Shown one piece after another: positions 5,396 through 35,741 of a stretch of 48,406 bases of DNA. The DNA is from Kiloniellaceae bacterium. GTDB taxonomy: Bacteria > Pseudomonadota > Alphaproteobacteria > Kiloniellales > J153. The translations under genes and the position numbers were made by a program. The notes under the pieces are model-generated. The model did no database searches. It saw only the letters and a program-made list of their open reading frames with translations, and was not told the origin of the DNA. Position 1 is the first letter of the stretch. Each line of letters begins with the position of its first letter. The stretch is from positions 1 to 48,406 of the forward strand of contig JAJFGN010000033.1 in NCBI GenBank assembly GCA_021776115.1. The letters run 5' to 3'.

Positions 5396-6502
5396 CTACC
5401 TCCCTGTTGGGCCGGCGGTGATGCCGGCCGGTGGAATTTGCGTTGGCGGTGGCGCCGCCAGCGGCAGTTCGCACGGATCGACGCGGCCCGAAGCAGCCAC
5501 TGGGCAAGCCGCCCAATGTCCGGGCCGAATCTCTTCAAGCCGCGGCACGTCTTCGCGGCACCGTGGAATCGCGATCGGGCAGCGCGTGTGGAAGACACAC
5601 CCGCCCGGCGGATTGAGCGGGCTGGGGATTTCCCCCGCGAGAACTTGATGTGGCCGTGCCGCCTCGATTTCGGGGTCCGGCACTGGAATCGCCTCCATCA
5701 GCGCGACGGTATAGGGATGCAGCGGTTCATCGAACAGAACTTCGCTGTCGCCTAATTCGGCGGTTTTCCCCAGGTACATCACGGCCACCCGGTCGCACAG
5801 GTGCTTCACGACGCTGAGGTCGTGGCCGATGAAGAGGTAGGTCAAACCGAGATCGTCCTTGAGATCCTGAAGCAGATTGATGATCTGCGCCTGGATCGAA
5901 ACATCAAGCGCCGAGACCGCTTCATCGCAAACGATCAGGTCGGGGTTCAAGGCAAGCGCCCGGGCGATGCCCACCCTCTGACGCTGACCGCCGCTCATCT
6001 CGTGCGGGTAGCGCTCGGCCATCCGCCCGGGTAGGCCGCACATTTCCAGAAGCCGCCGCACGCGCCTGTCGATCTCCACGCGACCCAGCCCGGCTTCGTG
6101 GATCAGATAGGGCTCACCGACGATCTCGCGCACGGCCATGCGTGGGTTAAGCGAGGAATAGGGGTCCTGGAAAATAGCCTGGACCCGCCGCCGGTAACCT
6201 AGTTCCTCGGCCTTATTCATGGTCCAGATATCTTGACCGTCGAACAGGATCTGGCCGGCGCTTGGCGCGACCAGTTTCAGGATCGTGCGGGCGACCGTGG
6301 TCTTGCCACAGCCCGACTCCCCGACCAGGCCTAGGACCTCGCCCTTGGCGATTGCAAACGAGATGCCATCGACCGCTTTGACGTGGCCGATGGTCCGCCG
6401 CAAGACCGCGCCCTTGGTGACCGGGAAGTGAACCTTCAGGTCCCGCACCTCCAGGATCGGCGTCGACGCGCCGCCCGCGCCTTTGGGCGCCGTCGGTGTC
6501 AT
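5396..6502 (-). CDS. dppF: Peptide ABC transporter ATP-binding protein (DppF/OppF type)
   Basis: A 368-residue ATPase and the first gene of the minus-strand peptide importer operon. It shows Walker A GESGCGKT at residues 61-68, an intact Q-loop (FQDPYSSLNPRM), signature MSGGQRQRVGIARAL, Walker B LIVCDEAVSALD, and the switch His in FIGHDLSVVKHL. The C-terminus has the oligo_HPY segment with GCVFHTRCPIA...C. An extra tail rich in Pro, Ala and Gly follows (about 30 residues), slightly longer than typical. It should heterodimerise with the separately encoded DppD. The gene is divergent from the GntR regulator at 6766, with 263 bp between the starts. Confidence 0.9.
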   Translation of the reverse strand: MTPTAPKGAGGASTPILEVRDLKVHFPVTKGAVLRRTIGHVKAVDGISFAIAKGEVLGLVGESGCGKTTVARTILKLVAPSAGQILFDGQDIWTMNKAEELGYRRRVQAIFQDPYSSLNPRMAVREIVGEPYLIHEAGLGRVEIDRRVRRLLEMCGLPGRMAERYPHEMSGGQRQRVGIARALALNPDLIVCDEAVSALDVSIQAQIINLLQDLKDDLGLTYLFIGHDLSVVKHLCDRVAVMYLGKTAELGDSEVLFDEPLHPYTVALMEAIPVPDPEIEAARPHQVLAGEIPSPLNPPGGCVFHTRCPIAIPRCREDVPRLEEIRPGHWAACPVAASGRVDPCELPLAAPPPTQIPPAGITAGPTGR

Positions 6503-9430: not shown

Positions 9431-10510
9431 ATGACCACCATCCTCGACGTAAAGAACGTGACCAAACTCTACGATGGTGAGGTGGCTCTCGACGGTCTTT
9501 CCGTCGAACTGCAGGTCAACGAATACCTTTCGCTTCTCGGCCCTAGCGGTTCTGGCAAATCGACTTTGCTTCGCGTCATCGCCGGTTTCGAAATGTCCGA
9601 TGCCGGCGATATTCATCTTGCCGGCGAATCGGTCGCCGGGGTACCTGCGCACAAACGGGGCATCGGTTTCGTATCACAAGGCTTCGCGCTGTTTCCCCAT
9701 ATATCGGTCTTCGACAATGTTGCGTTCGGACTTCGGCACAGGGAGGACGACCCCGTACGCGATGAGGGCGACGTCGCCCGTCGCGTCAATGAAATGCTCG
9801 ATTTGGTTGGGCTGGCGGATTTGGGCGATCGCGGTATCAATCAGATTTCCGGGGGACAAAAGCAGCGGGTAGCTCTCGCTCGGACGCTGGTCGCCGATCC
9901 CAAGATTATTCTACTGGATGAGCCCCTCGGTGCCCTGGACGCTAACCTGAGGGCGCGCATGCGCATCGAGCTCAGGCGTATTCGTCAGCAGTTGGGCATC
10001 ACCTTCATGCACGTGACCGGTAATGAGCAAGAAGCACTGGCCATGGGAGACAGGGTTGCAGTCCTCGACAATGGCCGGCTCGCGCAGGTTGCTGATCCGG
10101 ATACCGTGTACAATCAGCCAGCTTCGGCGCGGGTGGCGCGTTTCCTGAACTGCTACAATATGTTCGAGGGACGAGCCGGAGACGACAAACAGTTTTGCGT
10201 CGGCGACGCCAGCTTCCCTTATCCCTCGCCCCAAGACGCCTCGATCGGACCGGGGACATATTGTGTCCGTTTCGACAAAATCCGGGTTGCGCCGGCTACT
10301 GCGGCGCCTCGGCCGGGTGAGGCCGGCGTTCGGGCAACTTTCATCACCAGCGAATATTCGGGGCCCAGCATCACGTACTTTTTCGAGGGCCAGGGGAACA
10401 AAGTGCTTGAGGTGGAGTATCACCTCAGCCACCGCCAGCCAGAAGAGTTTTCTCCCGGCAGCGAATACTCGCTCTTGTGGTCGCCGGGCGATGCACTCGT
10501 TTACTCCTGA
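9431..10510 (+). CDS. Polyamine-type ABC transporter ATPase, switch histidine replaced by Gly
   Basis: A 359-residue PotA-like ATPase with a C-terminal TOBE-type regulatory region. Walker A GPSGSGKS (residues 37-44), Q-loop Gln83 (VSQGFALFPH), signature ISGGQKQRVALAR (139-151) and Walker B IILLDE (159-164) are present. The usual switch motif VTHDQEEAL reads VTGNEQEAL, so the catalytic-switch His is Gly197 (codon GGT at 10019-10021). This suggests a weak or non-hydrolysing site. A second PotA-like ATPase with all motifs intact is encoded at 15294-16403 in the same cluster, and the two may form an asymmetric heterodimer. It is the first gene of the 26 kb plus-strand run, followed 18 bp later by permease genes. 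Confidence 0.88.
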   Translation: MTTILDVKNVTKLYDGEVALDGLSVELQVNEYLSLLGPSGSGKSTLLRVIAGFEMSDAGDIHLAGESVAGVPAHKRGIGFVSQGFALFPHISVFDNVAFGLRHREDDPVRDEGDVARRVNEMLDLVGLADLGDRGINQISGGQKQRVALARTLVADPKIILLDEPLGALDANLRARMRIELRRIRQQLGITFMHVTGNEQEALAMGDRVAVLDNGRLAQVADPDTVYNQPASARVARFLNCYNMFEGRAGDDKQFCVGDASFPYPSPQDASIGPGTYCVRFDKIRVAPATAAPRPGEAGVRATFITSEYSGPSITYFFEGQGNKVLEVEYHLSHRQPEEFSPGSEYSLLWSPGDALVYS

Positions 10511-10528
10511 TGGGAAACCGTAAGGCTG

Positions 10529-11455
10529 ATGGAAGAGGCTAGACGCAGGATTCAGGGCGGTTCCGGAGTCTCCGCCGTGGCTGGGGTGGCCGCGGAGAAG
10601 AAGGATCCGCGCGCCCGCCGGATCACGGCCCTGCTGGTCGCTCCAGGAATTATCTGGATGGTTCTGTTCCTTGTCGTGCCGATGCTGATGATGGTTTATG
10701 TCAGCTTCTGGACGCAGAAGACCTTCACGATCGAACCGACTTTGACGCTGAATAGCTGGATCGCATTCTTCTCCAGTGAAACCTATTTCGGCGCTCTGCT
10801 CAGGACGATCAGAATATGGTTGATCGTTCTCGCCGCGACCTTCTTTCTGGGCTATCCAACAGCCCTCTTTATCGGCCTCTTCATCAAAAACAAGACGATC
10901 CAGACCATTGTTCTCGTGCTTTGCGTTGTGCCGTTCTGGACGTCGTTTCTAATTCGCGTGCTTGCTTGGCGTCCGATGCTCGGCAAGGAGGGCGCGGTCA
11001 ATATCGTGCTGCAAAAAATCGGTTTGATCAGCCAGCCGATTGAGGTTCTGCTATTCACCGAGTTCAGCGTCGTCATCGGCATGACGCAGATCTATGTCGT
11101 GTTCATGGTCGGGCCAATCGCCTTCATGCTGTCGCGCATCGATCCCAGCCTTATCGAGGCGGCGCGCGATCTTGGTGCGAGCACCTGGCGCATTTTCCGC
11201 ACCATCATCTTTCCCTTGAGCCTGCCTGGCGTAGTTGTCGGCGCCATCTTCGTTTCGGTCATGGTGCTGGGCGAATTCGCCACGTCGGCCGCGCTGTCGG
11301 GGCGCAAGGTCAATCTGCTCGGCAATATTATCGTGACTCAGGTCGGCTCGCTGAAGTGGGCGTTCGCCGCCGTTGTCGGGGTGATGCTGACCGCAGTTAT
11401 GGCCATCGTTGTTGCCGCGCTGCTCCGACTCGCGGACTTGAGGAAGGAGCTCTGA
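10529..11455 (+). CDS. Polyamine-type ABC transporter permease (PotB-like)
   Basis: A 308-residue inner-membrane permease with an N-terminal cytoplasmic tail of about 30 residues and about six membrane helices (first near 36-60). The ATPase-contact EAA loop is EAARDLGASTWRIFRTIIFP at residues 210-229. It belongs to the PotB/binding-protein-dependent permease family, which imports polyamines and related cations, but homologues carry many other small molecules. It starts at ATG 10529 and its stop is 2 bp before the GTG of the partner permease. No ligand can be assigned from the sequence. Confidence 0.88.
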   Translation: MEEARRRIQGGSGVSAVAGVAAEKKDPRARRITALLVAPGIIWMVLFLVVPMLMMVYVSFWTQKTFTIEPTLTLNSWIAFFSSETYFGALLRTIRIWLIVLAATFFLGYPTALFIGLFIKNKTIQTIVLVLCVVPFWTSFLIRVLAWRPMLGKEGAVNIVLQKIGLISQPIEVLLFTEFSVVIGMTQIYVVFMVGPIAFMLSRIDPSLIEAARDLGASTWRIFRTIIFPLSLPGVVVGAIFVSVMVLGEFATSAALSGRKVNLLGNIIVTQVGSLKWAFAAVVGVMLTAVMAIVVAALLRLADLRKEL

Positions 11456-11457
11456 GC

Positions 11458-12309
11458 GTGGAAAACCGACCCATTCTGCGCTCGGCGTTGGCTTTATATA
11501 CAGCTCTCTTCATCGGTTTTCTCTATGCGCCGTTTGTGGTTCTCGGGATCTTGAGTTTCCAGTCCGGACCAGAGGGCGGCCCGCAATTCCCGATCACGGA
11601 ATGGTCTACCTACTGGTACGAGCACATCTTCGGTCTGACGCCTCCATCGAGGGTGGCTCCGCTTCCGATCGGCGAGACGCTCGTGAGGTCGCTGACGCTT
11701 GCCTTCACAACCATGGTGACGTCGACGGTTCTTGGGACCATGACGGCGCAGGCGTTCCGGCGACGCTTTAAAGGCTCGGGGTTCGTATTCTATCTGGTAG
11801 TTCTCGGCATGATCGTGCCCGGCGTTTTGGTGGGGCTGGGCATCGCCCTGGTCGCCAACAACCTGGGAATCTCCCGGGCGTGGTGGGGCACAGCGTTCGT
11901 GGCGCATGTCGTTTACACCTTTCCGTTCGCATTCCTCGTCATGTTGGCGATCTTCAATCGCTTCGACAAATCGGTAGAGGAAGCAGCCTGGAGCCTGGGA
12001 GTTCCGCCGATGCGGACATTCCGGAAGGTGACGTTCCCCCTGATTTTTCCCGGTGTCCTGAGTTCGATGCTGTTCGCCTTCACCCTCAGTTATGACGAAT
12101 TTCCGCGTACCTTGTTCGCGGCCGGCGCCGACCTCACGTTGCCGCTGGCGATATACGGTACCTTTGCCGTGGAAATCCATCCGAACCTTTTCGCGTTCGG
12201 TGTGCTGACCACATTGTTCTCGTTCTCGCTGCTGACGGTTTACGGGATCCTCATGTCGATTTCCATACATCGCGCGAAAAAAGTCGCCATCCAGGAAGAA
12301 ATCGAATGA
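11458..12309 (+). CDS. Polyamine-type ABC transporter permease (PotC-like)
   Basis: A 283-residue permease and partner of the preceding gene. The GTG at 11458 is chosen as start because AGGAAGGAG lies 8-16 bases upstream and the encoded MENRPILRSALALYTALFIG gives a normal PotC-like first helix; the longer frame from 11356 overlaps the upstream gene. The EAA-type loop is EEAAWSLGVPPMRTFRKVTF followed by PLIFPG. Its 3' end overlaps the start of the next SDR gene (ATGA), so transport and metabolism are translationally linked. Confidence 0.88.
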   Translation: MENRPILRSALALYTALFIGFLYAPFVVLGILSFQSGPEGGPQFPITEWSTYWYEHIFGLTPPSRVAPLPIGETLVRSLTLAFTTMVTSTVLGTMTAQAFRRRFKGSGFVFYLVVLGMIVPGVLVGLGIALVANNLGISRAWWGTAFVAHVVYTFPFAFLVMLAIFNRFDKSVEEAAWSLGVPPMRTFRKVTFPLIFPGVLSSMLFAFTLSYDEFPRTLFAAGADLTLPLAIYGTFAVEIHPNLFAFGVLTTLFSFSLLTVYGILMSISIHRAKKVAIQEEIE

Positions 12310-13052
12310 GGCAAGTTTCCGAACATGTTGCCGTGATTACCGGCGCCGGCAATGGCATCGGGCGGGCGATCGCCGTGCGTCTTGCCAGAGAGGGCGCTCA
12401 GGTTGTCGTCAACGATCTTCGCCTGGAAGCGGCAGACCGGGTTGCGGCTGCGATCAACGCTGACGGCGGCAAGGCTGTGGCGGCTCCGGGCGATGTTTCG
12501 TCGCCCGAGGATGTCGCGGGTGTGTTCGAGCACTGCCGCGACGCATTCGGAGAGTGTTCGCTGCTCGTCAACAATGCTGGCTTTGTCCACCAATCCCTTT
12601 TCGAAGACCTGACGATCGACGAGTGGGACCGGATGATCGCGGTTCATTTGCGCGGCACTTTCCTTTGCGCGCGGCAAGCCATCATTACGATGCTGGAACG
12701 CCGTGAAGGGGTGATAATCAATATCGCTTCGCAGCTCGGGCAGATTGGTGGCGTCGAGCTTTGCCATTACAGCGCGGCGAAAGCCGGCATCATCGGCCTT
12801 ACCAAGTCGCTGGCGCGAGAGGTCGGCAAGCGCGGCGTCCGCGTGAATGCTGTCGCACCGGGGCCGATCAACACGAATTTGGTCCGCGATCTTTCGGAGC
12901 AGTGGCGTTCGGCCAAGGCGGCGGAACTGCCGCTGGGCCATTTCGGCGAGCCGGAGGACGTGGCCGATACTGTGGCCTTTCTCGCTTCTCCAAAAGCGCG
13001 AATCTACTTAGGCCAAACGCTGGGGCCTAATTCTGGAGACGTAATGCTCTGA
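12306..13052 (+). CDS. Short-chain dehydrogenase/reductase (SDR), FabG-like
   Basis: A 248-residue classical SDR. The nucleotide-binding motif TGAGNGIG lies near residues 12-19, the NNAG motif follows, the active-site Ser is in NIASQ, and the catalytic pair is YSAAK. Asp in VVNDLR after the second strand suggests NAD(H) rather than NADP(H). It overlaps the upstream permease gene by four bases, so it belongs to the operon. It probably oxidises an alcohol or reduces a ketone formed from the imported compound; the substrate is unknown. A second, different SDR follows at 13111. Confidence 0.87.
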   Translation: MRQVSEHVAVITGAGNGIGRAIAVRLAREGAQVVVNDLRLEAADRVAAAINADGGKAVAAPGDVSSPEDVAGVFEHCRDAFGECSLLVNNAGFVHQSLFEDLTIDEWDRMIAVHLRGTFLCARQAIITMLERREGVIINIASQLGQIGGVELCHYSAAKAGIIGLTKSLAREVGKRGVRVNAVAPGPINTNLVRDLSEQWRSAKAAELPLGHFGEPEDVADTVAFLASPKARIYLGQTLGPNSGDVML

Positions 13053-13110
13053 CAAGACGCCGGCGGCAGCGGCTGGCCGCAGACGGGAAGAAATCGGGGA
13101 GTCACAAAGT

Positions 13111-13872
13111 ATGGCGGATCATAAGAGCGTGCTCATTACCGGAGGTGGCATCGGTATCGGAAAGGCAACGGCGTTCGCCTTCGCCGACACCGGCTATCAC
13201 GTGATCGTAACGGACGTGCTCGACAAGGAAGGCAATGCCGTCGCCGATGAGATCCGCGGAAAGGGCGGTTCCAGCGAGTTCCACCGACTGGACGTCACGA
13301 ATACGAAAAATGCCAACGATGTTGTCGCTGCCGCGGAAGCAAGATGCGGCGCGTTGGACGTCATCGTCGCCAATGCGGGCATCGCTCACAGGGTACCATT
13401 GGCACAAATGACGGACGAAAAATGGGATCACACCTTCGAAGTCGATCTGAAGGGCATCATGCGCATCGTGCGCGCGGCCACTCCGGCTATGAGGACGAAA
13501 AAATCGGGCACTGTTATCGCTTTGTCTTCGATCATGGGCGTCGCGTATGGCTGGGACGAACACGTTCACTACTCGGCCGCCAAATCGGGCGTGGTTGGCC
13601 TGGTGCGTGGCTTGGCCGTTGAGCTGGCGAAGGATGGCATCCGTGTCAACGGGGTCGCACCGGGCTACGTCCGCACCGCCCAGGCGCTTTCCGAAGAACA
13701 TTCGCTCGGGCCAGCGGGGCTCGAAAAAGCAGCCGAGTTCATTCCCATGGGTCGGGTCGGGGAACCCGACGATATTGCGGACGTCGTTGTTTTCTTGGCG
13801 TCGCATGCTGCCCGGTACATGACCGGGCAAATAGTCGTGGTCGATGGCGGCCTTCTTGTCGGGAGATATTGA
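13111..13872 (+). CDS. Short-chain dehydrogenase/reductase (SDR), second copy
   Basis: A 253-residue classical SDR with TGGGIGIG (residues 10-17), Asp in VTDVLD suggesting NAD preference, VANAG, the catalytic Ser in SSIMG and the catalytic YSAAK pair. The C-terminal GQIVVVDGG is the normal SDR end. It is clearly diverged from the SDR at 12306, so this is not a recent duplication, and the pair may act on two steps or two isomers. It lies 58 bp after the first SDR. A tiny open frame overlaps its stop codon (TGATG). Confidence 0.87.
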   Translation: MADHKSVLITGGGIGIGKATAFAFADTGYHVIVTDVLDKEGNAVADEIRGKGGSSEFHRLDVTNTKNANDVVAAAEARCGALDVIVANAGIAHRVPLAQMTDEKWDHTFEVDLKGIMRIVRAATPAMRTKKSGTVIALSSIMGVAYGWDEHVHYSAAKSGVVGLVRGLAVELAKDGIRVNGVAPGYVRTAQALSEEHSLGPAGLEKAAEFIPMGRVGEPDDIADVVVFLASHAARYMTGQIVVVDGGLLVGRY

Positions 13873-13961
13873 TGCGCAAGAAGTCTTTCCAGGCCACCAA
13901 CATCCATACGAGCGTCATCCATAAGAGCGTCATTGAAGGGAGACAACACAGATGTCTGTGA
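13872..13961 (+). CDS. Possible 29-residue leader peptide containing a tandem repeat
   Basis: An ATG overlapping the SDR stop (TGATG) opens a frame of 29 residues, starting MRKKSFQATN and ending 10 bases inside the following binding-protein gene. It could couple translation of the SDR and the binding protein by reinitiation. A 15-bp tandem repeat in it (13901-13930) encodes IHTSV-IHKSV. No homologue is recognised and it may be chance. Its AAGGGAG near 13936-13942 is the ribosome binding site of the next gene. Confidence 0.25.
   Translation: MRKKSFQATNIHTSVIHKSVIEGRQHRCL
13901..13930 (+). repeat. 15-bp tandem repeat upstream of the binding-protein gene
   Basis: CATCCATACGAGCGT (13901-13915) is followed directly by CATCCATAAGAGCGT (13916-13930), with one mismatch and a following CAT. 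It ends 21 bases before the binding-protein ATG. It resembles the 14-bp duplication at 9384-9411 in position, just before a transporter gene, though not in sequence. Confidence 0.75.
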
Positions 13962-15199
13962 AGAACGAATACACTCGCCGCAGCGTTTTGAGCGCTGCGT
14001 TGAAGGGCTCGGTTGCCACGACGGCGCTGGCCTTAGGCGGTGGCACGCCGTTCTTGAGTTCGAGCAAGGCTTATGCGGCCGCCATGGATCTTTCGAAGCA
14101 GGAGTTGCGCACCATCGGCCTGTCGGTGACGGTGCAGGAACGCATCCTCGATGATTTCCGGGCCAAGTCCGGCGTCGGCAGCACCACGGGCACCGCGGCG
14201 ACCTTCCCCGATGCCCAAACCAAAATCCTCTCCGGTTCGAAGGACTTCGACTGCTGGGAGACTATCGGCGAGCGTCTGCCTGCCGTGGTGATGACCAACA
14301 ACATCGACCCGGTTCCGACGTCGAGCCTGAAGAACTGGGGCAACATTCGTGACACCTTTACCAAAGTAAATCCCAAGTGGGAGAAGAGGGCGCAGATCAC
14401 CGGTCAGATTTGGGCGGACGATGCCCAGACCAAGCTGTGGATGGTGCCGACCGTCTATAACTACGACTCCATCGGCTACAACCCGTCGGTGGTCAGCGAC
14501 GAAGAGGCCAATACCTGGACAGCCATTTTCGACAAGAAGTGGAAAGGCCGCTCGGGTCTCAACACCGATCCCCTGATCGCACTGGGCCAGGCCGTTCTGG
14601 CGATGAATAGCTTGGGCCTGTCGGACGTCAAGAACCCCGGTAACCCGAACAAGGCGCAAATCGACGAGGCCATGAAGTTCCTCATCTCCAAGAAGAAGGA
14701 AGGCCAGTTCCGAGCCCTGTGGGGTGATTTCGGCGAGCTGGTGAACCTCCTCGCTTCGGGCGAGATGGTGGTTGTCGACGCCTGGCAGCCGGCCGTGATG
14801 GCGGTAAAGGCACAGGGTACGCCCTGCCGTTACGCGGTTCCGAAGGAAGGCTACCGCGCCTGGTCGATCGGCATTTCCCCGATCGCCGGCACGCCCAACA
14901 AGGATGCGGTCAACGCCTATGCCGACTACTGGTTGTCCGGCCCGCCGGCGATCACTGTGTCCGAGCAGGGCTATTATTCGCCGACGACCAACGTTAAGGA
15001 CGCCATGGATCCCGACCGCTATGCCTTCTGGTACGAGGGCAAACCCTGGAAGGGCGCACCGTCCCGCGGCATCAAGGAAGGCGATCTGCGCGATGGCGGC
15101 TCGCTCGATGAGCGTGCCTCGACGGTGGCCTACTGGCACCAATGGCCGGACGAGTACGACTACGTCACCGCGAAATGGGACGAGTTCCTCAGCGCCTGA
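13952..15199 (+). CDS. Polyamine-type ABC transporter substrate-binding protein, Tat signal
   Basis: A 415-residue periplasmic binding protein of the spermidine/putrescine (PotD-like, SBP_bac_8) class. The N-terminus YTRRSVLSAALKGSVATTAL, followed by an alanine-rich region ending KAYAA, is a twin-arginine signal, so export probably occurs after folding. Good spacing to AAGGGAG supports the ATG at 13952. It should capture the ligand for the importer at 9431-12309 and 15294. The residues that set ligand specificity are not recognised; the genetic setting suggests a cyclic amide or its opened product rather than a polyamine. A strong UUCG hairpin follows. A paralogue without signal peptide is at 34488. 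Confidence 0.9.
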   Translation: MSVKNEYTRRSVLSAALKGSVATTALALGGGTPFLSSSKAYAAAMDLSKQELRTIGLSVTVQERILDDFRAKSGVGSTTGTAATFPDAQTKILSGSKDFDCWETIGERLPAVVMTNNIDPVPTSSLKNWGNIRDTFTKVNPKWEKRAQITGQIWADDAQTKLWMVPTVYNYDSIGYNPSVVSDEEANTWTAIFDKKWKGRSGLNTDPLIALGQAVLAMNSLGLSDVKNPGNPNKAQIDEAMKFLISKKKEGQFRALWGDFGELVNLLASGEMVVVDAWQPAVMAVKAQGTPCRYAVPKEGYRAWSIGISPIAGTPNKDAVNAYADYWLSGPPAITVSEQGYYSPTTNVKDAMDPDRYAFWYEGKPWKGAPSRGIKEGDLRDGGSLDERASTVAYWHQWPDEYDYVTAKWDEFLSA

Positions 15200-15230
15200 G
15201 GACTTTCCCTGGCGACCAAGTACGGAGACA

Positions 15231-15256
15231 GACCGGAGCTGTTCGCAGCTCCGGTC
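15231..15256 (+). terminator. 11-bp stem with TTCG loop after binding-protein gene
   Basis: GACCGGAGCTG (15231-15241), loop TTCG, then the exact complement CAGCTCCGGTC (15246-15256). It starts 32 bases after the binding-protein stop and ends 37 bases before the next ATPase. No T-run follows, so it is better explained as an mRNA-stabilising hairpin or partial terminator that raises binding-protein output over the membrane components. Confidence 0.75.
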
Positions 15257-15293
15257 CACTCCACATTAAGAAATTCCAGAGGGCATACTATTC

Positions 15294-16403
15294 GTGGCAT
15301 ACGATCTGGAACTGATCGGCGTAGAAAAGATCTACGATAACGGCACGGTCGCCGTTCGGAACTTCGACCTTCAAGTCGAGAAGGGCCAGTTTATATCATT
15401 CGTAGGGCCGTCCGGCTGCGGCAAGACGACGACTCTGCGCATGATCGCGGGGTTCGAATCGATCACATCGGGCGAAGTGCGAATTCGCGGCCGCCGCATC
15501 AACGAGCTTCCCGCGGAGCAGAGGCCGACCTCCACGATTTTCCAGAACTACGCGCTGTTTCCACACATGACGGTGCGGCAGAACATTGAATACGGGTTGT
15601 CCGTCAAAGGGCTTCCGGCGCCCGACCGCCGGAAGAAAGCGGAAGGGATCATGGAGAAGTTCGAGCTTCTCGAAGTTGCCGACCGCCGGCATGAAGTTCT
15701 CTCGGGCGGGCAACAGCAGCGTATTGCGCTGGCACGGGGCATAGCGGTCGAACCGGAGATCCTGCTGCTCGATGAGCCATTGGGCTCGCTCGACGCAAAC
15801 TTGCGCAAGTCGATTCAGAACGAACTCAAGCTGCTGCAACGCGATCTGGGTATCACCTTCATTTTTGTCACCCATGCGCAGGAGGAGGCGCTGGTGCTGT
15901 CCGATCGCGTCATCGTCATGAATCGCGGCGAGGTTGAACAAGTCAGCCCACCATATGAGCTCTATACCCGCCCCAAAACGCGGTTTGTAGCCCAGTTCAT
16001 CGGACGCAACACCAACATTCCCGGAACGCTCAAAGGCCGAGATGGCGAAATCGCAGTGGTCGATACCGGGTATGGGACCCTGAAAGGGTTTCTCAATGAC
16101 AGTTCTCTGTCGGACGGCGAGGGAGTCATCGCGGTGGTGCCATCGGAGGCGATCGACGTCTATCCGGTAACCGTCAACCGCGAAGAACTGGTCGCGCGAT
16201 ACCAGGGCAATGTGGTGGAAGGCGTGGTCCGAGCCGCCGACTTGGTGGGCCACACCGTATTTTATGCCATCGATTTGCCCGACAATCGGGAAGTACGCAT
16301 AGAAAGCCATATCGAGAAGTACCACGAGGCCTTCGAGGCCGGCGTCTCGCGCGTCTACCTGGGTTGGGCACCTAACGAGGCAACGGTCATAGGTAAGGGC
16401 TAA
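15294..16403 (+). CDS. Polyamine-type ABC transporter ATPase with intact motifs
   Basis: A 369-residue PotA/UgpC-like ATPase with a C-terminal TOBE-like domain. Motifs are complete: Walker A GPSGCGKT (residues 38-45), Gln84 in IFQNYALFPH, LSGGQQQRIALARG (136-149), Walker B ILLLDE (156-161) and switch His194 in VTHAQEEAL. I use the GTG at 15294, which encodes MAYDLELIGV, after a CCAGAGGG-like site. With the degenerate ATPase at 9431 it gives two different ATPases for one permease pair, so an asymmetric transporter is likely. The alternative is that one ATPase serves a transporter elsewhere. Confidence 0.88.
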   Translation: MAYDLELIGVEKIYDNGTVAVRNFDLQVEKGQFISFVGPSGCGKTTTLRMIAGFESITSGEVRIRGRRINELPAEQRPTSTIFQNYALFPHMTVRQNIEYGLSVKGLPAPDRRKKAEGIMEKFELLEVADRRHEVLSGGQQQRIALARGIAVEPEILLLDEPLGSLDANLRKSIQNELKLLQRDLGITFIFVTHAQEEALVLSDRVIVMNRGEVEQVSPPYELYTRPKTRFVAQFIGRNTNIPGTLKGRDGEIAVVDTGYGTLKGFLNDSSLSDGEGVIAVVPSEAIDVYPVTVNREELVARYQGNVVEGVVRAADLVGHTVFYAIDLPDNREVRIESHIEKYHEAFEAGVSRVYLGWAPNEATVIGKG

Positions 16404-16440: not shown

Positions 16441-17817
16441 ATGACCAATTTGGACGCGCTGCCGCGAACCTCGGCGGCGAACCTCGGCCGTGTTCTTGCC
16501 AGCGGCGCCATGGATCCCGTCGAAGTCGCTGAGTTCTTTCTCGGGCGGATTGCCGAAGCGACGCCGCGGAATGTGTTTCTGTCCGTTGCCGGCGACCGCG
16601 CGCGGCTGGAAGCCGAGGCGAGCCGGAAGCGTTACCGGGAGGGCCGCGCCCTGGGCCCCCTAGACGGCGTGCCCGTCTCGTGGAAGGACCTGTTCGATGT
16701 CGCCGGCAGTCCGACGACGGCAGGATCCGCTTTGTTCTGTGACACCCCCCCTGCCGGGCGCGACGCGCCCGTCGTCGCCAACCTTGCAGCCGCCGGCATG
16801 GTCAGCCTGGGCAAAGTAAATCTCACCGAGTTCGCCTATTCGGGATTGGGTCTTAACCCCCACTACGGAACGCCGGCCAATCCCCATGACACAGCCGTCG
16901 AGCGCGCGCCGGGCGGATCGAGCTCAGGGTCGGGGGTCTCGGTTGCCAGCGGGCTGTGCCCGTGTTCCATCGGCTCTGATACCGGCGGATCGGTTCGCAT
17001 CCCGGCCGCCTTCAACGGCATCGTCGGCTACAAGACTTCGGAGCGGCGGATCGATAAATCGGGCGTCTTTCCCCTGTCCGATACCCTCGACACGGTTGGG
17101 CCGCTAGCAAGATCGGTCGAGGATGTTGTTCTCCTCGACATGGCGATGCGGGGCATGGTGGCCACAGGCGTCCGGCGTGGCGATCTTTCCGTGCTGACCA
17201 TTGTCGTTCCGGACAATGTCGTCCACGACGGCGTCGATGATGCGGTAGGTGCCAACTTCGAGGCTGCTATCGAACGTCTCTCGCGGGTGGGCGCGAATGT
17301 GATCCGGCGGACTCTGCCGCTACTCGACGAGGTTCAGGCGGTCACGCAGGCTTATGGATCGGTTACCGCCGCCGAGGCTTATTTCGTCCACAAGGATAGG
17401 GTCGATGGGCCCGATTGCGAAGCGATCGACCGCCGTGTCGTGGCACGGATCTTGGGCGGCAAGCGGATGTCTTCCCACGACCTAGTCGTCATCACACGTG
17501 CTCGGAAACGGCTTATCCGTGACCTGGAAAAGGAACTCGACGGCGCGCTTCTGGCGATGCCGACGACGCCGCATACGGCGCCCGAGATCGCGCCGCTGGA
17601 GGCCGACGACGAACTTTTTCACAGGACCAACCTTAAAACCCTGCGAAACACCATGCTGGGCAATTTTCTTGCCACGTGCGGACTTGCTTTGCCCTCGGGG
17701 CGGGATGCCAAGGGATTGCCTACCAGTATTCTTTTCTCGGCGCCCTGGGGTGCAGACGAGATGCTTCTGTCAAAAGGGCTTGCGATCGAGCCGGCGCTTA
17801 CCGAGGTGCCGTCGTAA
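16441..17817 (+). CDS. Amidase signature (AS) family amidohydrolase
   Basis: A 458-residue amidase of the Ser-cisSer-Lys class. The catalytic Lys82 is in PVSWKDLFDVAG, the cis-Ser is around residue 160 in GGSSSGSG, and the nucleophile Ser184 is in GSDTGGSVRIPAAFNG. Length fits the family. AS enzymes hydrolyse linear amides, here possibly the half-amides released when cyclic imides or lactams are opened; half-amidases of imide pathways are a known example of such a role. The start is the ATG at 16441 after GGAGGGGGCGAAC. It lies 37 bp after the ATPase and 53 bp before hyuA. The actual substrate is unproven. Confidence 0.88.
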   Translation: MTNLDALPRTSAANLGRVLASGAMDPVEVAEFFLGRIAEATPRNVFLSVAGDRARLEAEASRKRYREGRALGPLDGVPVSWKDLFDVAGSPTTAGSALFCDTPPAGRDAPVVANLAAAGMVSLGKVNLTEFAYSGLGLNPHYGTPANPHDTAVERAPGGSSSGSGVSVASGLCPCSIGSDTGGSVRIPAAFNGIVGYKTSERRIDKSGVFPLSDTLDTVGPLARSVEDVVLLDMAMRGMVATGVRRGDLSVLTIVVPDNVVHDGVDDAVGANFEAAIERLSRVGANVIRRTLPLLDEVQAVTQAYGSVTAAEAYFVHKDRVDGPDCEAIDRRVVARILGGKRMSSHDLVVITRARKRLIRDLEKELDGALLAMPTTPHTAPEIAPLEADDELFHRTNLKTLRNTMLGNFLATCGLALPSGRDAKGLPTSILFSAPWGADEMLLSKGLAIEPALTEVPS

Positions 17818-17870
17818 CTTTTCGGTTCATGCGCGGAGTAAACAGGTACAAAAAAAGGAGGGAGTGGCAC

Positions 17871-19952
17871 GTGGCGAAGATCGGGGTTGATGTCGGTGGG
17901 ACCTTTACCGACCTGATTCTCGAGGCCGAGGTGGAGGGCGAGAGTAGAGTCTATGTCCACAAGGTGCCGAGCACACCGGATGATCAATCCAAGGGGGTGC
18001 TCAAGGGGATCGACGAGATTTGCCGGATGGGGGGCGTCGCCCCCGCCGATGTCAAACTGGTCGTGCACGGAACGACGATTGCCACCAATATCATCCTCGA
18101 ACATACCGGTGCCGAAGTCGGCATGCTGACGACGCGGGGGTTTCGCGACATTCTGCACATCGCCCGTCACAAGCGGCCGCACAATTTTTCCATGCAGTTC
18201 GATGTCCCCTGGCAGTCGAAGCCGTTGGTGAAGCGTCGCAACCGGATTCCGATTTCCGAACGCATCCTGCCGCCGTCGGGCGACGTGGATACGGCGCTTG
18301 CCGAAGACGAAGTTCGCGAGGCGGCGGAGTTGTTCCGAAAGCGCGGGGTCGACGCGGTTCTGATCGCCTTCTTGTTCTCCTTTCTCAACAATGCGCATGA
18401 GCGTCGCGCCAAGGAAATCATCAAGGAGATGCTGCCCGACGTCTACATCTGCTGCTCCTCGGAAGTGGTTGATGTGATCCGCGAATATGAGCGGTTCTCG
18501 ACGACCGCGATGAACGCCTATGTCGGACCGAAAACGGCCTATTACCTGCGCAACCTGGAGAAAAACCTCCATCGGGAGGGGTTCGACGCCCAGGTGCGTA
18601 TCATGCAGTCGAACGGCGGTATCGGCACCGTCGAAACCTGTTCCGAGAAAGCGGTCACGATCCTGACATCGGGACCCGCCGGCGGCGTGATCGGTGGCCG
18701 GTGGGCCGGCGCCCTGTCCGGGGTCGATAATATCATCACGGTGGATATCGGCGGCACTTCGGCCGATATCAGCACCATCCCCAACGGCGAAATAAAGATC
18801 AAGAACCCGCGCGATACCTATGTCGGCGACTATCCCGTCCTGGCGCCGATGATCGATCTGACGACGATCGGCGCTGGCGGCGGTTCGATCGCATACATCG
18901 ACGAGGGCGGTGCGTTCCGTGTGGGTCCGCGCTCTGCCGGCGCGGATCCGGGGCCGGTGTGTTACGCCAAGGGCGGAACCGAACCGACGGTCACGGACGC
19001 CCAGGTCGTGCTCGGACGTCTCGATGCCGACAAGCTCCTGGGCGGCGATCTCATGGCCAACCCGGACTTGGCGCGCAAGGCCATCGAGGAAAAAATTGCC
19101 GCGCCACTGGGGCTTTCAGTCGAGGAAGCGGCGCTCGGCATCATCAAGATCATCAACAACAACATGGCGCTTGCAATCCGCGCCAACTCGGTGGCACGGG
19201 GGCTGGACCCCCGCAATTTCGCGCTGATGCCCTTTGGCGGGGCCGGACCGTTGCATGGTGTGTCGCTCGCTCGCGTCGTATCCGCCAAGGAGGTGATTGT
19301 TCCGCCGGCACCCGGCATCACGGCGGCGGTCGGCCTGTTGGTCACCGATATGCAATACGAGTTTACCCGCTCGGTGCTGACCATCCTCAATGACGCCGAC
19401 CAGAAGGCGCTCGACAATGTCAACGTCCATATCGAGAAGCTCGAACAATTGTGCCGCGAACGACTGCGGGCCGATGGTGTGCCACCCGAGAAACACCGTT
19501 TTGTCAGGATCGCCGAGTGCCGCTATCAGGGACAGGGTTTCGAGCTGCGGGCCGAAATGCCCAGCGGGCCGCTAACCCCGGAAAACAAGGGGGTGGTGAT
19601 GGAGAATTTCCATCAACAACACAGGCAGGACTACGGCTATGACTTCGCGGGGTCTCTGGTGGAGATTGTCACCCTGCGTGTTGTTGGCGTGGCCGAGGTA
19701 AGGAGCCTGGAGTGGCCCAAGCTTGCGGCGGTTAATGGCACTGGCATCGAGGACGCCTACCTCTTCAGCCGCCCGACCACGTTCGACGATGGCCAAACGC
19801 TGGAGACCCCGCGCTACGACCGCGGCAAGTTACTGGCCGGCCACGAGGTGGCCGGACCGGCGATCATAATTCAGCACAATTCGACGACCCTTATCCCGCC
19901 GAGATCCACCGCCCGTGTGCACGAATCCGGCAACCTTCACGTTTCAGTTTGA
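17871..19952 (+). CDS. hyuA: Hydantoinase/oxoprolinase subunit A (HyuA-like)
   Basis: A 693-residue protein with Hydant_A_N and Hydantoinase_A domains. It opens with the ASKHA ATP-binding motif GVDVGGTFTDLI, has HGTTIATN near residue 63, and a second phosphate-binding motif VDIGGTSADIS near 290. With the HyuB-type partner encoded next it should use ATP to activate and open a ring amide such as a hydantoin or 5-oxoproline; related pairs carboxylate ketones. The GTG at 17871 is chosen because AAAAGGAGGG lies just upstream and the first residues MAKIGVDVGG match the family; the open frame back to 17676 overlaps the amidase. It lies 22 bp before hyuB. Confidence 0.9.
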   Translation: MAKIGVDVGGTFTDLILEAEVEGESRVYVHKVPSTPDDQSKGVLKGIDEICRMGGVAPADVKLVVHGTTIATNIILEHTGAEVGMLTTRGFRDILHIARHKRPHNFSMQFDVPWQSKPLVKRRNRIPISERILPPSGDVDTALAEDEVREAAELFRKRGVDAVLIAFLFSFLNNAHERRAKEIIKEMLPDVYICCSSEVVDVIREYERFSTTAMNAYVGPKTAYYLRNLEKNLHREGFDAQVRIMQSNGGIGTVETCSEKAVTILTSGPAGGVIGGRWAGALSGVDNIITVDIGGTSADISTIPNGEIKIKNPRDTYVGDYPVLAPMIDLTTIGAGGGSIAYIDEGGAFRVGPRSAGADPGPVCYAKGGTEPTVTDAQVVLGRLDADKLLGGDLMANPDLARKAIEEKIAAPLGLSVEEAALGIIKIINNNMALAIRANSVARGLDPRNFALMPFGGAGPLHGVSLARVVSAKEVIVPPAPGITAAVGLLVTDMQYEFTRSVLTILNDADQKALDNVNVHIEKLEQLCRERLRADGVPPEKHRFVRIAECRYQGQGFELRAEMPSGPLTPENKGVVMENFHQQHRQDYGYDFAGSLVEIVTLRVVGVAEVRSLEWPKLAAVNGTGIEDAYLFSRPTTFDDGQTLETPRYDRGKLLAGHEVAGPAIIIQHNSTTLIPPRSTARVHESGNLHVSV

Positions 19953-19974
19953 TCGCAGACCAGGGAGAGTAGTG

Positions 19975-21744
19975 ATGAGCATCAAGGAAGTCGATCCGAT
20001 CACCCTGCAAGTGATCGGTGGGGCGTTCGATACCATCGCGCAGGAGATGGGACACGTGCTTTATCGCATGTCGTTCTCGTCCATCATCCGGGAATCTCAG
20101 GATCTTGGTGCGGGGTTGTTCGACACCAACTTCAGTACTCTGTGCGAGTCGGATTCGACGCCGCTGCATATCGGCTCCATTCCGGGATATCTGCGCGGCA
20201 TTCAGGAAACCCTGCAGGGCGGCGAATGGAACGAAGGTGACATCGTCATTCACAATCACCCCTACTACGGGGCGAGCCATTCCCCGGATATCGCCGTTGT
20301 CATGCCGATCTTCTGGAAGGGCGAACTGGTCGGCTTCTCTGCCAACACCGCCCATCATGTCGACATTGGTTCGGCGACGCCGGGTCTGATCATCGACATC
20401 CCCGACGTCTTCGCCGAGGGTATGCTGTTTGCCGGAACCAAGCTCTACGAGAAGGGCAAACGGAATGAAGCGATTTGGCAGTTCCTCGGCCGCAACAGCC
20501 GCATGCCAAAGCAGTTGCAAGACGATCTCGAGGCGCAGATCGCCTCGGTCAAGCTCGGCGCCCGGCGGTTTATCGAACTGATCGAAAACTATGGCAAGGA
20601 CACGGTCTCGGCCGCAGCTAACCAGTTGATGGATTACTCGGAACGCATCTTGCGCAGCCGGATTGCGGAAATTCCCGATGGAGAATATTACGCCGAAGGC
20701 TTTTTGGATGATGACGGACGTAACCGCGACAAGCGATTGCCCATCAAAGTGTGTGTCCGCGTCAAGGGGGATTCGGTAGAGGTCGATTTGACGGGGTCGG
20801 CCGACCAGGTACCCACCGGTTTTAACGTCCCCTTCGAAGGGTCCACCAAGGTCGCTTGCTTCTTTGCTTTCCGGGCGCTGCTCCTGGATACGGCAACATC
20901 GGAGGAATACGTCCCACAGAACGAGGGATCGTTCCGGCCGATCAATGTGATTGCGCCTGAGGGGTCTAGTTTCCATCCCAAATTTCCCGCTGCGGCCGAG
21001 GCCCGGTTCACCCAGTGCAACCGCGTTATCGACCTCATCGTAAGGGCGTTGTCGCCGGTGTTGCCGGAACGGGTCACGGCGGGCAATTCCGCCAGCCTCT
21101 CGTTTGTCGCCTATTCGGGTATCCGACCGAGCGGCGATTACTGGGTGTTTCTCGAGGTCAACGAGGGTGCCTATGGCGGCCGGCCGCACTCCGATGGCCC
21201 CGATTCCATCGACAATCTGATGTGCAATACCCGCAATAACCCCATCGAGGATCTCGGCATGCACCTGCCGATGATCTGCGACCGCTATGAACTGCGCGAC
21301 GACGTCATGCCTGGCGCCGGCAAATATCGCGGCGGAATCGGCGTGGTCAAGGCGCAGCGACTCCTCACGGACGGGTCAATCACTCATGAGAACGAAAGGC
21401 ATCTCGATACGCCATGGGGCGTTTTCGGCGGCGAGTTGGGCGCCGTCGGAAAGGTCGAGATCTACAACACTCTGGAAGACAGGGGCGTCAAACAGTTGCC
21501 GGCCAAGTTTTCGGGTGTGCCGGTGAAAGCCGGCGACGTAATGGCATTCTATGCGCCCTGCGGCGGCGGTTTCGGTAACCCGCTCGAACGTACTCCCAAG
21601 CAGGTGCGCGAGGACGTGCTGGATGGCTTCTGCACACGCGAGCACGCCCGGCAGTCCTACGGGGTCGTCGTAATGGAGGACGAGGAGATCGACGTCGCGG
21701 CAACCAGCGAGCTGCGCGAACAAATGCGGCAGAAGGTAGCTTGA
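19975..21744 (+). CDS. hyuB: Hydantoinase/oxoprolinase subunit B (HyuB-like)
   Basis: A 589-residue Hydantoinase_B-family subunit that partners the preceding HyuA-like protein. It starts at ATG 19975, MSIKEVDPITLQVIGGAFDT, with AGGGAGAG upstream; the longer frame is rejected because it overlaps hyuA. Family features include FDTNFSTLCES, HNHPYYGASHSPDI and HHVDIGS, which includes probable metal ligands in this family, and the C-terminal APCGGGFGNPLERT. Length is normal. Its sequence is well diverged from the second HyuB at 29462, so the two pairs probably act on different substrates. Confidence 0.9.
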   Translation: MSIKEVDPITLQVIGGAFDTIAQEMGHVLYRMSFSSIIRESQDLGAGLFDTNFSTLCESDSTPLHIGSIPGYLRGIQETLQGGEWNEGDIVIHNHPYYGASHSPDIAVVMPIFWKGELVGFSANTAHHVDIGSATPGLIIDIPDVFAEGMLFAGTKLYEKGKRNEAIWQFLGRNSRMPKQLQDDLEAQIASVKLGARRFIELIENYGKDTVSAAANQLMDYSERILRSRIAEIPDGEYYAEGFLDDDGRNRDKRLPIKVCVRVKGDSVEVDLTGSADQVPTGFNVPFEGSTKVACFFAFRALLLDTATSEEYVPQNEGSFRPINVIAPEGSSFHPKFPAAAEARFTQCNRVIDLIVRALSPVLPERVTAGNSASLSFVAYSGIRPSGDYWVFLEVNEGAYGGRPHSDGPDSIDNLMCNTRNNPIEDLGMHLPMICDRYELRDDVMPGAGKYRGGIGVVKAQRLLTDGSITHENERHLDTPWGVFGGELGAVGKVEIYNTLEDRGVKQLPAKFSGVPVKAGDVMAFYAPCGGGFGNPLERTPKQVREDVLDGFCTREHARQSYGVVVMEDEEIDVAATSELREQMRQKVA

Positions 21745-33504: not shown

Positions 33505-34434
33505 ATGGAAGCGGTCTTCAACGTCGTTATCCCGGTCTTCGCGGTGATTTTGAGCGGTTATGCCGCCGGTCGGCTCGGCATCCTGGGGTCAGCGAGCAGC
33601 GAAGCGCTTAATCGTTTCGTCTATTATGGGGCGCTGCCGCCGCTCCTGTTTGTGTCGATGGCCACGGTCGAGCCCGATGCGATCTTCAACTGGCCCTTTG
33701 TCGGCGCCTATCTCGGGGGGATTCTCACGATCTCCATTCTGTCGTTTTTCCTGTCGAAGTTCGTGTTCGGCCAGGATTTGCCGTCATCGAGCATCCATGG
33801 GATGACGGCAATCTTTGGCAATACCGGCTATATGGGCATTCCGCTTTCCCTGGTGGCGTTCGGTCCCGAAGCGGTGCTGCCAGCGGCGATCGCGACGGTG
33901 ATCAACAGTGCCATCGTCATCGGCGTTGTCACGGCCCTCGTCGAGCTCGGGCAGCGCCGGGCGCAGGGATGGGCCATTGCCCGCGACGTGGTACGCGCGT
34001 TGGTGCGAAACCCCCTTCTCGTGGCCTCCCTGGCCGGTATCATCCTATCGATAGCCGGTGTGCCCCTGCCCAAGCCGATCGAGACCTTTTGCCGGATTCT
34101 CGGCGGGGCGGCCGGGCCCGGTGCGTTGTTCGCCATTGGTCTTTTTCTCGTCGGGCGGTCATTTCGCGGCCATGTGGGAGAAGTGGCGTCCATGGTCTTG
34201 CTGAAGCTCGCGGTACAGCCGCTGATCACATTGGCGCTTGTGGCGACATTGTTCCCGATGGACCCGCCATGGGCCGGCATGGCGATTCTTCTGGCGGCTC
34301 TGCCAAGCGGTGCGAACGTTTTCGTTATCGCGCAACGCTATAACACCTACGTTGAGCAATCGTCGGCAGCCATCTTGTTTTCCACGTGTCTTTCCGTGGC
34401 TTCCATAGCTGTGATCCTGGCGTACATAGGGTAG
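33505..34434 (+). CDS. AEC-family (auxin efflux carrier-like) transporter
   Basis: A 309-residue integral membrane protein of the Mem_trans/AEC family with about ten predicted helices. The opening MEAVFNVVIPVFAVILSGYA and the internal ATIFGNTGYMG-like segment (AIFGNTGYMGIPLSLVAFG) are typical. Members export auxin or carry dicarboxylates such as malate and malonate. In this cluster it may move a product or intermediate (for instance a dicarboxylate or amino acid). It starts at ATG 33505 with CAGGAGG upstream. It is followed 53 bp later by the second binding protein. Confidence 0.85.
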   Translation: MEAVFNVVIPVFAVILSGYAAGRLGILGSASSEALNRFVYYGALPPLLFVSMATVEPDAIFNWPFVGAYLGGILTISILSFFLSKFVFGQDLPSSSIHGMTAIFGNTGYMGIPLSLVAFGPEAVLPAAIATVINSAIVIGVVTALVELGQRRAQGWAIARDVVRALVRNPLLVASLAGIILSIAGVPLPKPIETFCRILGGAAGPGALFAIGLFLVGRSFRGHVGEVASMVLLKLAVQPLITLALVATLFPMDPPWAGMAILLAALPSGANVFVIAQRYNTYVEQSSAAILFSTCLSVASIAVILAYIG

Positions 34435-34487
34435 GGTCAAGGACGCCGGGCGCGTCGACATTTCGGCTTTCCGAAGAGGATCAGGGA

Positions 34488-35741
34488 ATGGTGAAGCGGG
34501 GCGAAAAGCAGATACTGGCGTCGCCCAGCGTCCAGACCGCCGGCAAGCCGGTTCTCAGGGTGCTGGGCACTGGCGTGACGCTTATCGAGCCTATAAGGCA
34601 AAGAGCCGAGAAAGACCTTGGGATCGGGCTGGAGTTCGAGGTTCTCGACGGCGTGGCAGCCCAGGCGAAGGGGGTGATGCAGCCGGCAAGCTACAATGTT
34701 TACGATCAGTGGTTCCACAGCGTGGAGTTGCTCTGGCTTTCCGGGGCGATACAACCCATCGACATCGATCGGATCGAACTCTGGAGCGAGGTCAACTCCC
34801 TGGCCAAGGAGGGGCGGTTAACGCCGGAGGCTCGCTTCGGACACGGCGACAATCCAGTGGACCGGCTTTACGTGCATCCTGGCCGCGGCCTGGGGCGGGA
34901 ACCCAACGGCAAGATCAGCATGCTGCCTGGCGCTCACAACGTCGATAGCTTCGCCTACAACCTGGAGGCGGTGACTGCCGGCGAGCCTTACCGGACGGAA
35001 AGCTGGGGATGGCTGCTCGATGAACGGTGGCGAGGAAAGGTCGCTCTGGTCAACGATCCGGCGATCGGTGTCATCGATGCCGCCCTGGCGGCAGAGGCAC
35101 AGGGTCTGATGACCTTCGCGGATGTCGGCAATATGACGCTTGAGGAGATCGATCGCCTCATCGATATCCTTCTCGACAAAAAGAAGGCGGGCCATATCAA
35201 AACCTTCTGGAATTCTTTTGCCGAAGCAGACGAACTAATGGCGCGCCGTGAAGTCGTGATCGAGAGCATGTGGTCGCCGAGTGTGATGCGCCTCAAAGGG
35301 CGGGGTATCCCGGTGCGATATGCGGCACCCAGGGAAGGGTACCGGGCGTGGCAGGGTGGAATGTGCATTTCGTCGCGCACGGAAGGCCGCACCCTCGATA
35401 TCGCTTACGAATATCTCAATTGGTGGATGTCCGGCTGGCCTGGGGCGATAATGGCGAGGCAGGGTTATTATTTCTCGATTCCCGACCGTATTCGCGATCA
35501 CCTGTTGGACGACGAATGGGCCTATTGGTACATGGGGCAAGAGGCCGCCAGCGACTTGCCCGGCCCCGATGGCGCCGTTGTCGTGCGAGCCGGCGAATGC
35601 CGGGATGGCGGCTCCTACTGGCAGCGCTTCGCCAATATCGGCGTGTGGAACTCGATCATGGACGAACACAACTATCTTGTTCGTCGTTGGCAGGAGCTGA
35701 CTGCTGGGAACGGCTCGTCGGGCGGACGCGGCAAGAGATAG
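34488..35741 (+). CDS. Polyamine-type substrate-binding protein lacking a signal peptide
   Basis: A 417-residue SBP_bac_8/PotD-like protein related to the one at 13952: both share the RQGYY/EQGYY segment, the PDR...YAFWY/WAYWY pattern and the RDGGS motif near the C-terminus. The ATG at 34488 (MVKRGEKQIL) has AGAGGATCAGGGA upstream. The N-terminus has no hydrophobic signal or twin-Arg motif, and the open frame back to 34386 overlaps the AEC gene and lacks one too. It may therefore stay in the cytoplasm as a ligand sink or sensor, be exported with a partner, or be a decayed transporter part. It ends the plus-strand cluster. Confidence 0.8.
   Translation: MVKRGEKQILASPSVQTAGKPVLRVLGTGVTLIEPIRQRAEKDLGIGLEFEVLDGVAAQAKGVMQPASYNVYDQWFHSVELLWLSGAIQPIDIDRIELWSEVNSLAKEGRLTPEARFGHGDNPVDRLYVHPGRGLGREPNGKISMLPGAHNVDSFAYNLEAVTAGEPYRTESWGWLLDERWRGKVALVNDPAIGVIDAALAAEAQGLMTFADVGNMTLEEIDRLIDILLDKKKAGHIKTFWNSFAEADELMARREVVIESMWSPSVMRLKGRGIPVRYAAPREGYRAWQGGMCISSRTEGRTLDIAYEYLNWWMSGWPGAIMARQGYYFSIPDRIRDHLLDDEWAYWYMGQEAASDLPGPDGAVVVRAGECRDGGSYWQRFANIGVWNSIMDEHNYLVRRWQELTAGNGSSGGRGKR

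Follow-up and report, generated by a model that had tools for sequence, protein, structure and literature searches.

Is one ATP molecule hydrolysed in each cycle of an ATP-binding cassette (ABC) importer, or are two? The question is an old one, usually approached by mutants, and it is raised anew by an operon of a Kiloniellaceae bacterium (Alphaproteobacteria, Kiloniellales), found on contig JAJFGN010000033.1 of assembly GCA_021776115.1 (positions 1 to 48,406, forward strand; this whole stretch of 48,406 nucleotides is called the window hereafter). The operon encodes two different ATPases, ATP1 and ATP2, together with two permeases, TM1 and TM2, and in ATP1 the histidine of the switch (H-loop) is replaced by Gly197. 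The best reading of the sequences is a type I importer that is heteromeric and has the switch histidine in one of its two sites only, in which ATP1 and ATP2 probably form an obligate heterodimer on TM1 and TM2, of the PotABCD-like kind and with one working ATP site. The features on which the question turns are:

9431..10510, + strand: ATP1, PotA/MalK-type ABC ATPase with switch residue Gly197 (359 aa; ABC_tran and TOBE_2 domains)
10019..10021, + strand: codon GGT of Gly197, the H-switch position (ungapped alignment to the PotA histidine)
15294..16403, + strand: ATP2, PotA/MalK-type ABC ATPase with all motifs (motifs, Pfam and NCBIfam comparison)

The H-loop of ATP1 reads HVTGNEQEAL, within the surrounding sequence LGITFMHVTGNEQEALAMGDRV, and VTHDQEEAL of Escherichia coli PotA aligns to it without a gap, which places Gly197 at the position of the switch histidine. 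The remaining motifs of ATP1 are intact (Walker A GPSGSGKS, Q83, signature ISGGQ, Walker B LLDEP). The switch histidine that follows Walker B in PotA/MalK-type ATPases (VTHDQ) is thus lacking in ATP1, whereas ATP2 has it (H-loop VTHAQEEAL) along with Walker A GPSGCGKT, signature LSGGQ and Walker B LLDEP. Both descriptions had been given in the original prediction, made from the letters of this DNA, and both hold. Glycine occupies the switch position in all 40 orthologous ATP1 loci read, the window counted, and we therefore rejected the idea that Gly197 stems from a frameshift or an error of sequencing. These loci comprise L010-L028 and L046 from a genome scan (one of whose six seed patterns, FMHVTGNE, is biased to Gly loci), L077, L079 and L128, and 16 loci from plasmid records (L081-L094, L129 and L130); L073-L076 and L078, which repeat L010-L013 and L019, and L009 and L114, which repeat L079, were left out. 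Those that carry a title belong to Kiloniellaceae, Rhodovibrionaceae, Rhodobacterales, Rhizobiaceae and SAR116, and one plasmid record bears the unverified label Roseateles.

Could the glycine simply mark the neutral decay of a spare ATPase gene, the importer being powered by ATP2 alone? We regard this as very improbable. The nucleotide-binding domain of ATP1 does evolve faster than that of ATP2 (see below), as decay would have it, but the glycine is invariant among 32 rows down to 46% identity to the ATP1 of the window, and it is written with three synonymous codons, GGC, GGT and GGA (in a tally that counts one locus twice and covers the loci other than L129 and L130). In an alignment of 128 ABC ATPase rows, the switch residue is Gly in the 37 ATP1 rows, and the 91 others, 35 ATP2 orthologues among them, have 90 His and one Ser. 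Of positions 1 to 240, 74 do not vary within the 37 ATP1 rows, including the key nucleotide-motif residues K43, Q83, SGGQ 140-143, D163 and E164, which also speaks against decay, as does the fact that loss of the ATP1 gene by itself was not seen in the records searched. Both LLDEP of ATP1 (37/37 rows) and LSGGQ of ATP2 (34/34 orthologue rows) are fully kept in the same alignment, and Gly197 is followed by Asn or Ser at residue 198 and then by an invariant Glu199.

Three residues ahead of Gly197 lies His194 (codon 10010-10012), present in 37/37 ATP1 rows as against 6/90 of the rows that bear the switch histidine. An AlphaFold model of ATP1, built with 20 alignment rows as input (mean predicted local distance difference test score 88.5), has a strand at 191-196 that ends before Gly197 and a helix from 199 onwards. 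His194 sits within this strand in the model and is also found beside a normal switch histidine elsewhere, and we therefore rejected it as an obviously relocated switch histidine.

The constancy of the glycine is matched by that of the partner. A His-bearing ATP2 (VTHAQ) stands in the same operon as ATP1 in 38/38 loci long enough to tell, L014 and L027 ending ahead of the expected place of ATP2; 16 of these 38 belong to plasmid records, and the locus set therefore overlaps with the plasmid set described next. In the plasmid collection, 46 records matched ATP1 by tblastn (E up to 1e-60) and all 46 also match ATP2; the switch residue was read in 16 of them, the other 30 being placed by similarity search alone. 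The best places of the two genes are 5.7-6.0 kb apart in 43/46 records, and the other three have two places each, the copy checked in each having its own ATP2. A set of 47 records has an ATP2 match of 56% identity or more, the next matches listed lying below 48%, and all 46 belong to it. The 47th, a plasmid of Rhizobium sp. SU303 (L095, 195000-212000), has a close ATP2 and lacks ATP1, TM1 and TM2; a long predicted gene runs there from the expected carboxylase place into the dehydrogenase, and a single deletion has apparently taken ATP1, TM1, TM2 and most carboxylase genes, leaving the solute-binding protein (SBP) gene and ATP2 stranded.

Searches led by other components, free of the bias of the genome scan, agree with this. 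Led by the SBP, 7/61 genomes of the order matched and 7/7, the window included, hold the ATP1/ATP2 pair (among the six others, four repeat L010-L013, one repeats L019 and L077 alone is new); led by ATP2 (E up to 1e-88), 2/385 genomes of the class were found, the same two as with ATP1 (E up to 1e-85). An ATP1 profile, made from Gly rows but scoring whole proteins, gave two orthologues at 546-570 bits in the 385 class genomes, followed by ten ATPases at 323-341 bits that all have His, and in 398 genomes from the phylum it added a single orthologue to that of the window, with the whole operon present. A region of S. meliloti that was examined proved to hold an ordinary His system. The original prediction had proposed to check whether the Gly ATPase always travels with a canonical second ATPase, and the answer is yes in the 46 plasmid records, the 38 loci and the two class genomes; the Gly variant by itself, which would have spoken against a heteromer, was looked for and was not seen in the 46 records or the 38 loci (overlapping sets). 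The ATP1/ATP2 pairing is kept across many alphaproteobacteria.

This co-occurrence bears on another explanation, that ATP1 and ATP2 serve as alternative homodimers or as regulators (ATP1, for example, as a TOBE-domain control subunit) rather than as a fixed heterodimer. MalK-type ATPases are usually homodimers, and both proteins here have a C-terminal TOBE_2 domain and ATP-binding motifs, which this explanation can claim. Against it stand the failure to find ATP1 without ATP2 and the consideration that an ATP1 homodimer would be wholly devoid of the switch histidine; we consider it quite improbable.

The other genes between the two ATPases are those of a type I importer, two BPD_transp_1 permeases of PotBC-like type and an exported binding protein in one operon, to which two dehydrogenase genes are added:

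10529..11455, + strand: TM1, type I importer permease, PotB-like (BPD_transp_1; best NCBIfam match PotB, under cut-off)
11452..12309 (start approximate), + strand: TM2, type I importer permease, PotC-like (BPD_transp_1; best NCBIfam match PotC, under cut-off)
12306..13052, + strand: SDR1, short-chain dehydrogenase (SDR), at the same place in most orthologous loci
13111..13872, + strand: SDR2, short-chain dehydrogenase, at the same place in most orthologous loci
13952..15199, + strand: SBP, solute-binding protein with N-terminal export signal (SBP_bac_8; RRSVLS, twin-arginine-like by eye)

One permease pair and one exported binding protein between the ATPases had been announced in the original prediction and are indeed there, the two SDR genes having gone unmentioned. 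Its further proviso, that ATP2 might pair with another permease, was followed up among the annotated open reading frames of the window (about 0.7-35.7 kb): the other ABC permeases are an Opp-type pair only, and ATP2 working with these upstream permeases was rejected as they have oligo_HPY ATPases of their own.

How would such an importer work? From the sequences, the kept glycine, the operon and the co-occurrence, an account of assembly, site use and stoichiometry can be proposed as follows. Each ATP site of the dimer would draw its Walker, Q-loop and H-loop elements from one subunit and its signature from the other. The site combining the Walker motifs and histidine of ATP2 with the signature of ATP1 would be canonical and would hydrolyse ATP, while that combining the Walker motifs and glycine of ATP1 with the signature of ATP2 would bind ATP and help to close the dimer, with slow or no hydrolysis, so that one ATP would be spent per transport cycle. 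As a precedent, a 1999 report by Nikaido and Ames holds, by its title, a single intact ATP-binding subunit to be enough for the histidine permease. Mutants in the switch histidine retain less than 2% of the ATPase activity in HisP, MalK and HlyB (excerpt of PMC6222333), and since the residue matters in these proteins, its absence from a PotA-like importer deserves attention. Further precedents are exporters for which one hydrolysed ATP is thought to be enough to reset the cycle (PMC7756565, in the portion used here), and ABCC1, in which a change of the histidine of nucleotide-binding site 1 has little effect (part of PMC7756269).

A comparison of the evolutionary constraint on the two proteins is consistent with this division of labour. 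A quick maximum-likelihood tree (117 rows) resolves ATP1 (32 rows) and ATP2 (31 rows) as one clade apiece, with support in the Shimodaira-Hasegawa-like approximate likelihood ratio test (SH-aLRT) of 100 and 99; their nearest neighbours are other His-bearing ATPases, two rows by ATP1 (86) and one by ATP2 (96). The tree has 43 open forks, and conclusions are limited to these two clades; being 36% identical and in separate clades, ATP1 and ATP2 are not recent duplicates. Over 33 loci the nucleotide-binding domain is more conserved in ATP2 than in ATP1 in 528/528 locus pairs (mean identity 0.730 vs 0.624), and the C-terminal parts are similarly conserved (0.359 in ATP2, 0.382 in ATP1). With near-copies removed (29 of the 33 loci), identity of the core (4-90 and 153-240) is 0.776 for ATP2 and 0.626 for ATP1, whereas the helical and signature part (91-152), which would serve the site of the partner, shows a slight reversal, 0.634 for ATP1 and 0.599 for ATP2. 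A tighter ATP2 core together with a slightly tighter ATP1 signature part is what is expected if the ATP2 Walker motifs and the ATP1 signature make up the working site. Shuffling of columns, which are not independent of one another, reached the contrast in 0 of 20,000 trials. We take the contrast as supporting, not proving, the proposed heterodimer.

Several points weigh against this account. The contrast loses strength if neighbouring columns stay together (13/233 circular shifts were as extreme), the biggest core differences lie at 4-36 and 208-240, outside the motifs, and conservation of the H-loop segment is the same in ATP1 and ATP2 (0.88). The loci are related and many plasmid records come from strains of one species, so that the counts are not independent, and genes that share an operon would be inherited together even if ATP1 and ATP2 never touched. 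In 2/46 plasmid records, both of Rhizobium leguminosarum, the ATP1 match is full and the ATP2 match incomplete (in two pieces in CP090202, 69% of the query covered in CP090120), and ATP2 may be broken there. In MalK, the nearest relative that has been studied, mutation of a single subunit is reported to impair transport severely (Davidson and Sharma 1997, again by title). Finally, some hydrolysis at the Gly site is possible, given that ATP1 keeps its Walker B glutamate, and two-ATPase importers need not be asymmetric, as both DppD and DppF hydrolyse ATP (excerpt of PMC12136057).

These last points bear on a rival reading, a heterodimer with two hydrolysing sites, in which the Gly site would rely on the Walker B glutamate and perhaps on His194 or the Asn/Ser198-Glu199 pair. 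In its favour, no row departs from the Walker B Glu, the Q-loop Gln or the ATP2 signature, His194 and Glu199 are invariant in ATP1, the former being rare elsewhere, and an H-loop mutant of Pdr5 is reported to retain ATPase activity (also in the excerpt of PMC6222333). In the model, however, His194 lies within the strand and Gly197 after it; as His194 coexists with a normal switch histidine in six rows, it need not be compensatory; and the ATP1 core is less conserved than the ATP2 core. Hydrolysis at both sites is in our judgement unlikely, and we return to the heterodimer with one working site.

The known systems closest to this importer set it in context. The top structural match of the ATP1 model is PotA of the E. 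coli PotABCD spermidine/putrescine importer (8y5f, 8zx1), its best matches in the PDB being PotA, MalK and related ATPases; by sequence the top PDB match of ATP2 is PotA and that of ATP1 is the iron-importer ATPase 9j4r_B, with PotA next, and the nearest permeases to TM1 and TM2 are PotB and PotC. Entry 8y5g, of PotABC, has PotA as both of its ATPase chains, whereas here two unlike ATPases are found, one without the switch histidine. Assignment by curated families stops short of PotA, whose cut-offs the window proteins do not reach. ABC_tran and TOBE_2 score above the Pfam gathering thresholds in ATP1 and ATP2 (TOBE_2 of ATP2 barely, 21.3 vs 21), the TIGR01187 cut-off of 355.6 bits is missed by both (285.7 for ATP1, 302.7 for ATP2), and no curated PotA, PhnT or MalK cut-off is exceeded, nor that of any of the 25 families listed of 188 for either protein.

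The original prediction had called the design one better known from exporters, and as a general statement this fails. Among 15 neighbouring ATPase pairs of the genome of the window that were read, ten are LivF/LivG-like by motif (L099-L106, L110, L111); one partner lacks the switch histidine in all ten (Gln in nine, Lys in one), and the other, His-bearing partner has a non-LSGGQ signature in 9/10. Four of these ten compared with NCBIfam gave LivF, LivG, UrtD or UrtE as best matches, under cut-offs. The LivF/LivG and UrtD/UrtE importers thus resemble the present system in having two different ATPases, one without the switch histidine, but their ATPase family is unlike that of ATP1 and ATP2 by sequence, and the signature of the partner deviates in nine of the ten pairs, while those of ATP1 and ATP2 are both normal. 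The permeases of LivF/LivG and UrtD/UrtE belong to another family. No Liv or Urt model appears for ATP1 or ATP2 among the 25 families listed of 188, nor was BCA_ABC_TP_C found in either at E up to 0.001.

The same genome also holds an adjacent UgpC/MalK-like ATPase pair (L098; G000:C11:22000-31000, at 3650-4744 and 4729-5871, minus strand), in which the switch histidine is Ser in one subunit and the signature LSGGQ is LTADA in the other; the pair presumably resembles GlpS/GlpT. It is an unequal pair of the MalK/PotA type, like ATP1/ATP2, but both sides of one composite site appear changed, and judged by its motifs it is a stronger candidate example of an asymmetric importer than ATP1/ATP2. Pairs L097, L107 and L109 have His in both partners, and L108, which looks like an exporter, has Ala for the switch histidine in one partner. 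Unequal importer ATPases are already common and similarly lopsided importers exist, among them RbsA and NupO, described as having one degenerate site (part of PMC11466899).

In exporters it is commonly the Walker B glutamate or the partner's signature that is lost from a degenerate site, and the membrane domains are fused to the nucleotide-binding domains. The heterodimeric exporters TM287/288, BmrCD, TmrAB and ABCC1 likewise combine one consensus and one altered site (according to the excerpt of PMC7756269), and the exporter-focused scope of that review may explain the impression that the design is better known from exporters. In the window, by contrast, only the switch residue differs, and each subunit has a gene of its own: a non-consensus residue stands in one site (Gly197 of ATP1) and its partner is canonical (His in ATP2), and neither the Walker B glutamate nor the partner signature is lost. 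The predicted heteromeric transporter is supported by comparison, no Gly-variant ATPase having been found without its partner, while the word degenerate applies to the switch residue only, the Walker B glutamate, the Walker A lysines and both signatures being intact. Neither a paper on the switch-Gly variant (including the string VTGSE) nor any on the LivF/LivG H-loop or on GlpS/GlpT in Rhizobium was found in the open-licence literature.

What is transported may be guessed at from the surroundings. Downstream of the operon lies a dense gene cluster of lactam/hydantoin type (window 16441-33388). There, on the strand of the operon, are genes for an amidase, hydantoinase A, hydantoinase B, a PxpA homologue (LamB/YcsF), biotin carboxylase, two carboxyltransferase halves, BioY, a member of the polysaccharide-deacetylase family, CobW and another hydantoinase pair, and a Mem_trans-family carrier and a second binding protein are encoded downstream on this strand too. 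Neighbours of several of these kinds are also present in plasmids of Rhizobium, Thioclava and Shinella. From the PxpA, biotin carboxylase, carboxyltransferase, hydantoinase and amidase neighbours we guess at a lactam- or hydantoin-like substrate. In the second copies of the importer on Shinella plasmids (L082, L129, L130) SDR1 and SDR2 were not detected, a cyclase-family gene coming next in L082, which suggests that the importer may be able to stand without the two dehydrogenases. In many relatives the vicinity of the operon contains further related genes for binding proteins. In the window, an Opp/Dpp-type importer lies upstream (673-6502), its two oligo_HPY ATPases on opposite strands flanking the permeases. 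The further transport genes of the window are:

673-1644, + strand: oligo_HPY ATPase of the Opp/Dpp-type importer
5396-6502, - strand: oligo_HPY ATPase of the Opp/Dpp-type importer
34386..35741, + strand: second solute-binding protein, 28% identical to SBP, beside the Mem_trans carrier

No ABC permease adjoining the second binding protein (34386-35741) was found, and this protein possibly serves the same ATP1/ATP2 transporter.

A more far-reaching interpretation, which we advance tentatively and hold to be possible rather than probable, is that of an old alphaproteobacterial lineage of PotA/MalK fold, hard-wired for one ATP per cycle, in which the Gly site would serve as a lasting latch that holds ATP. 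The two composite sites would have diverged reciprocally, with the ATP2 core and the ATP1 signature part under tighter constraint and the other parts relaxed, and this within a fold whose homodimeric member so far studied fares badly once a single subunit is mutated. The operon offers a natural type I importer, near MalK and PotA in fold, in which a single clean change of the switch histidine to glycine is kept across a wide bacterial group, and as all other motifs of the Gly site are unaltered, the contribution of the histidine can be told apart more cleanly here than in LivF/LivG or many exporters, in which several motifs have changed at once. If the account given here is right, this lineage would have adapted to what MalK does not tolerate.

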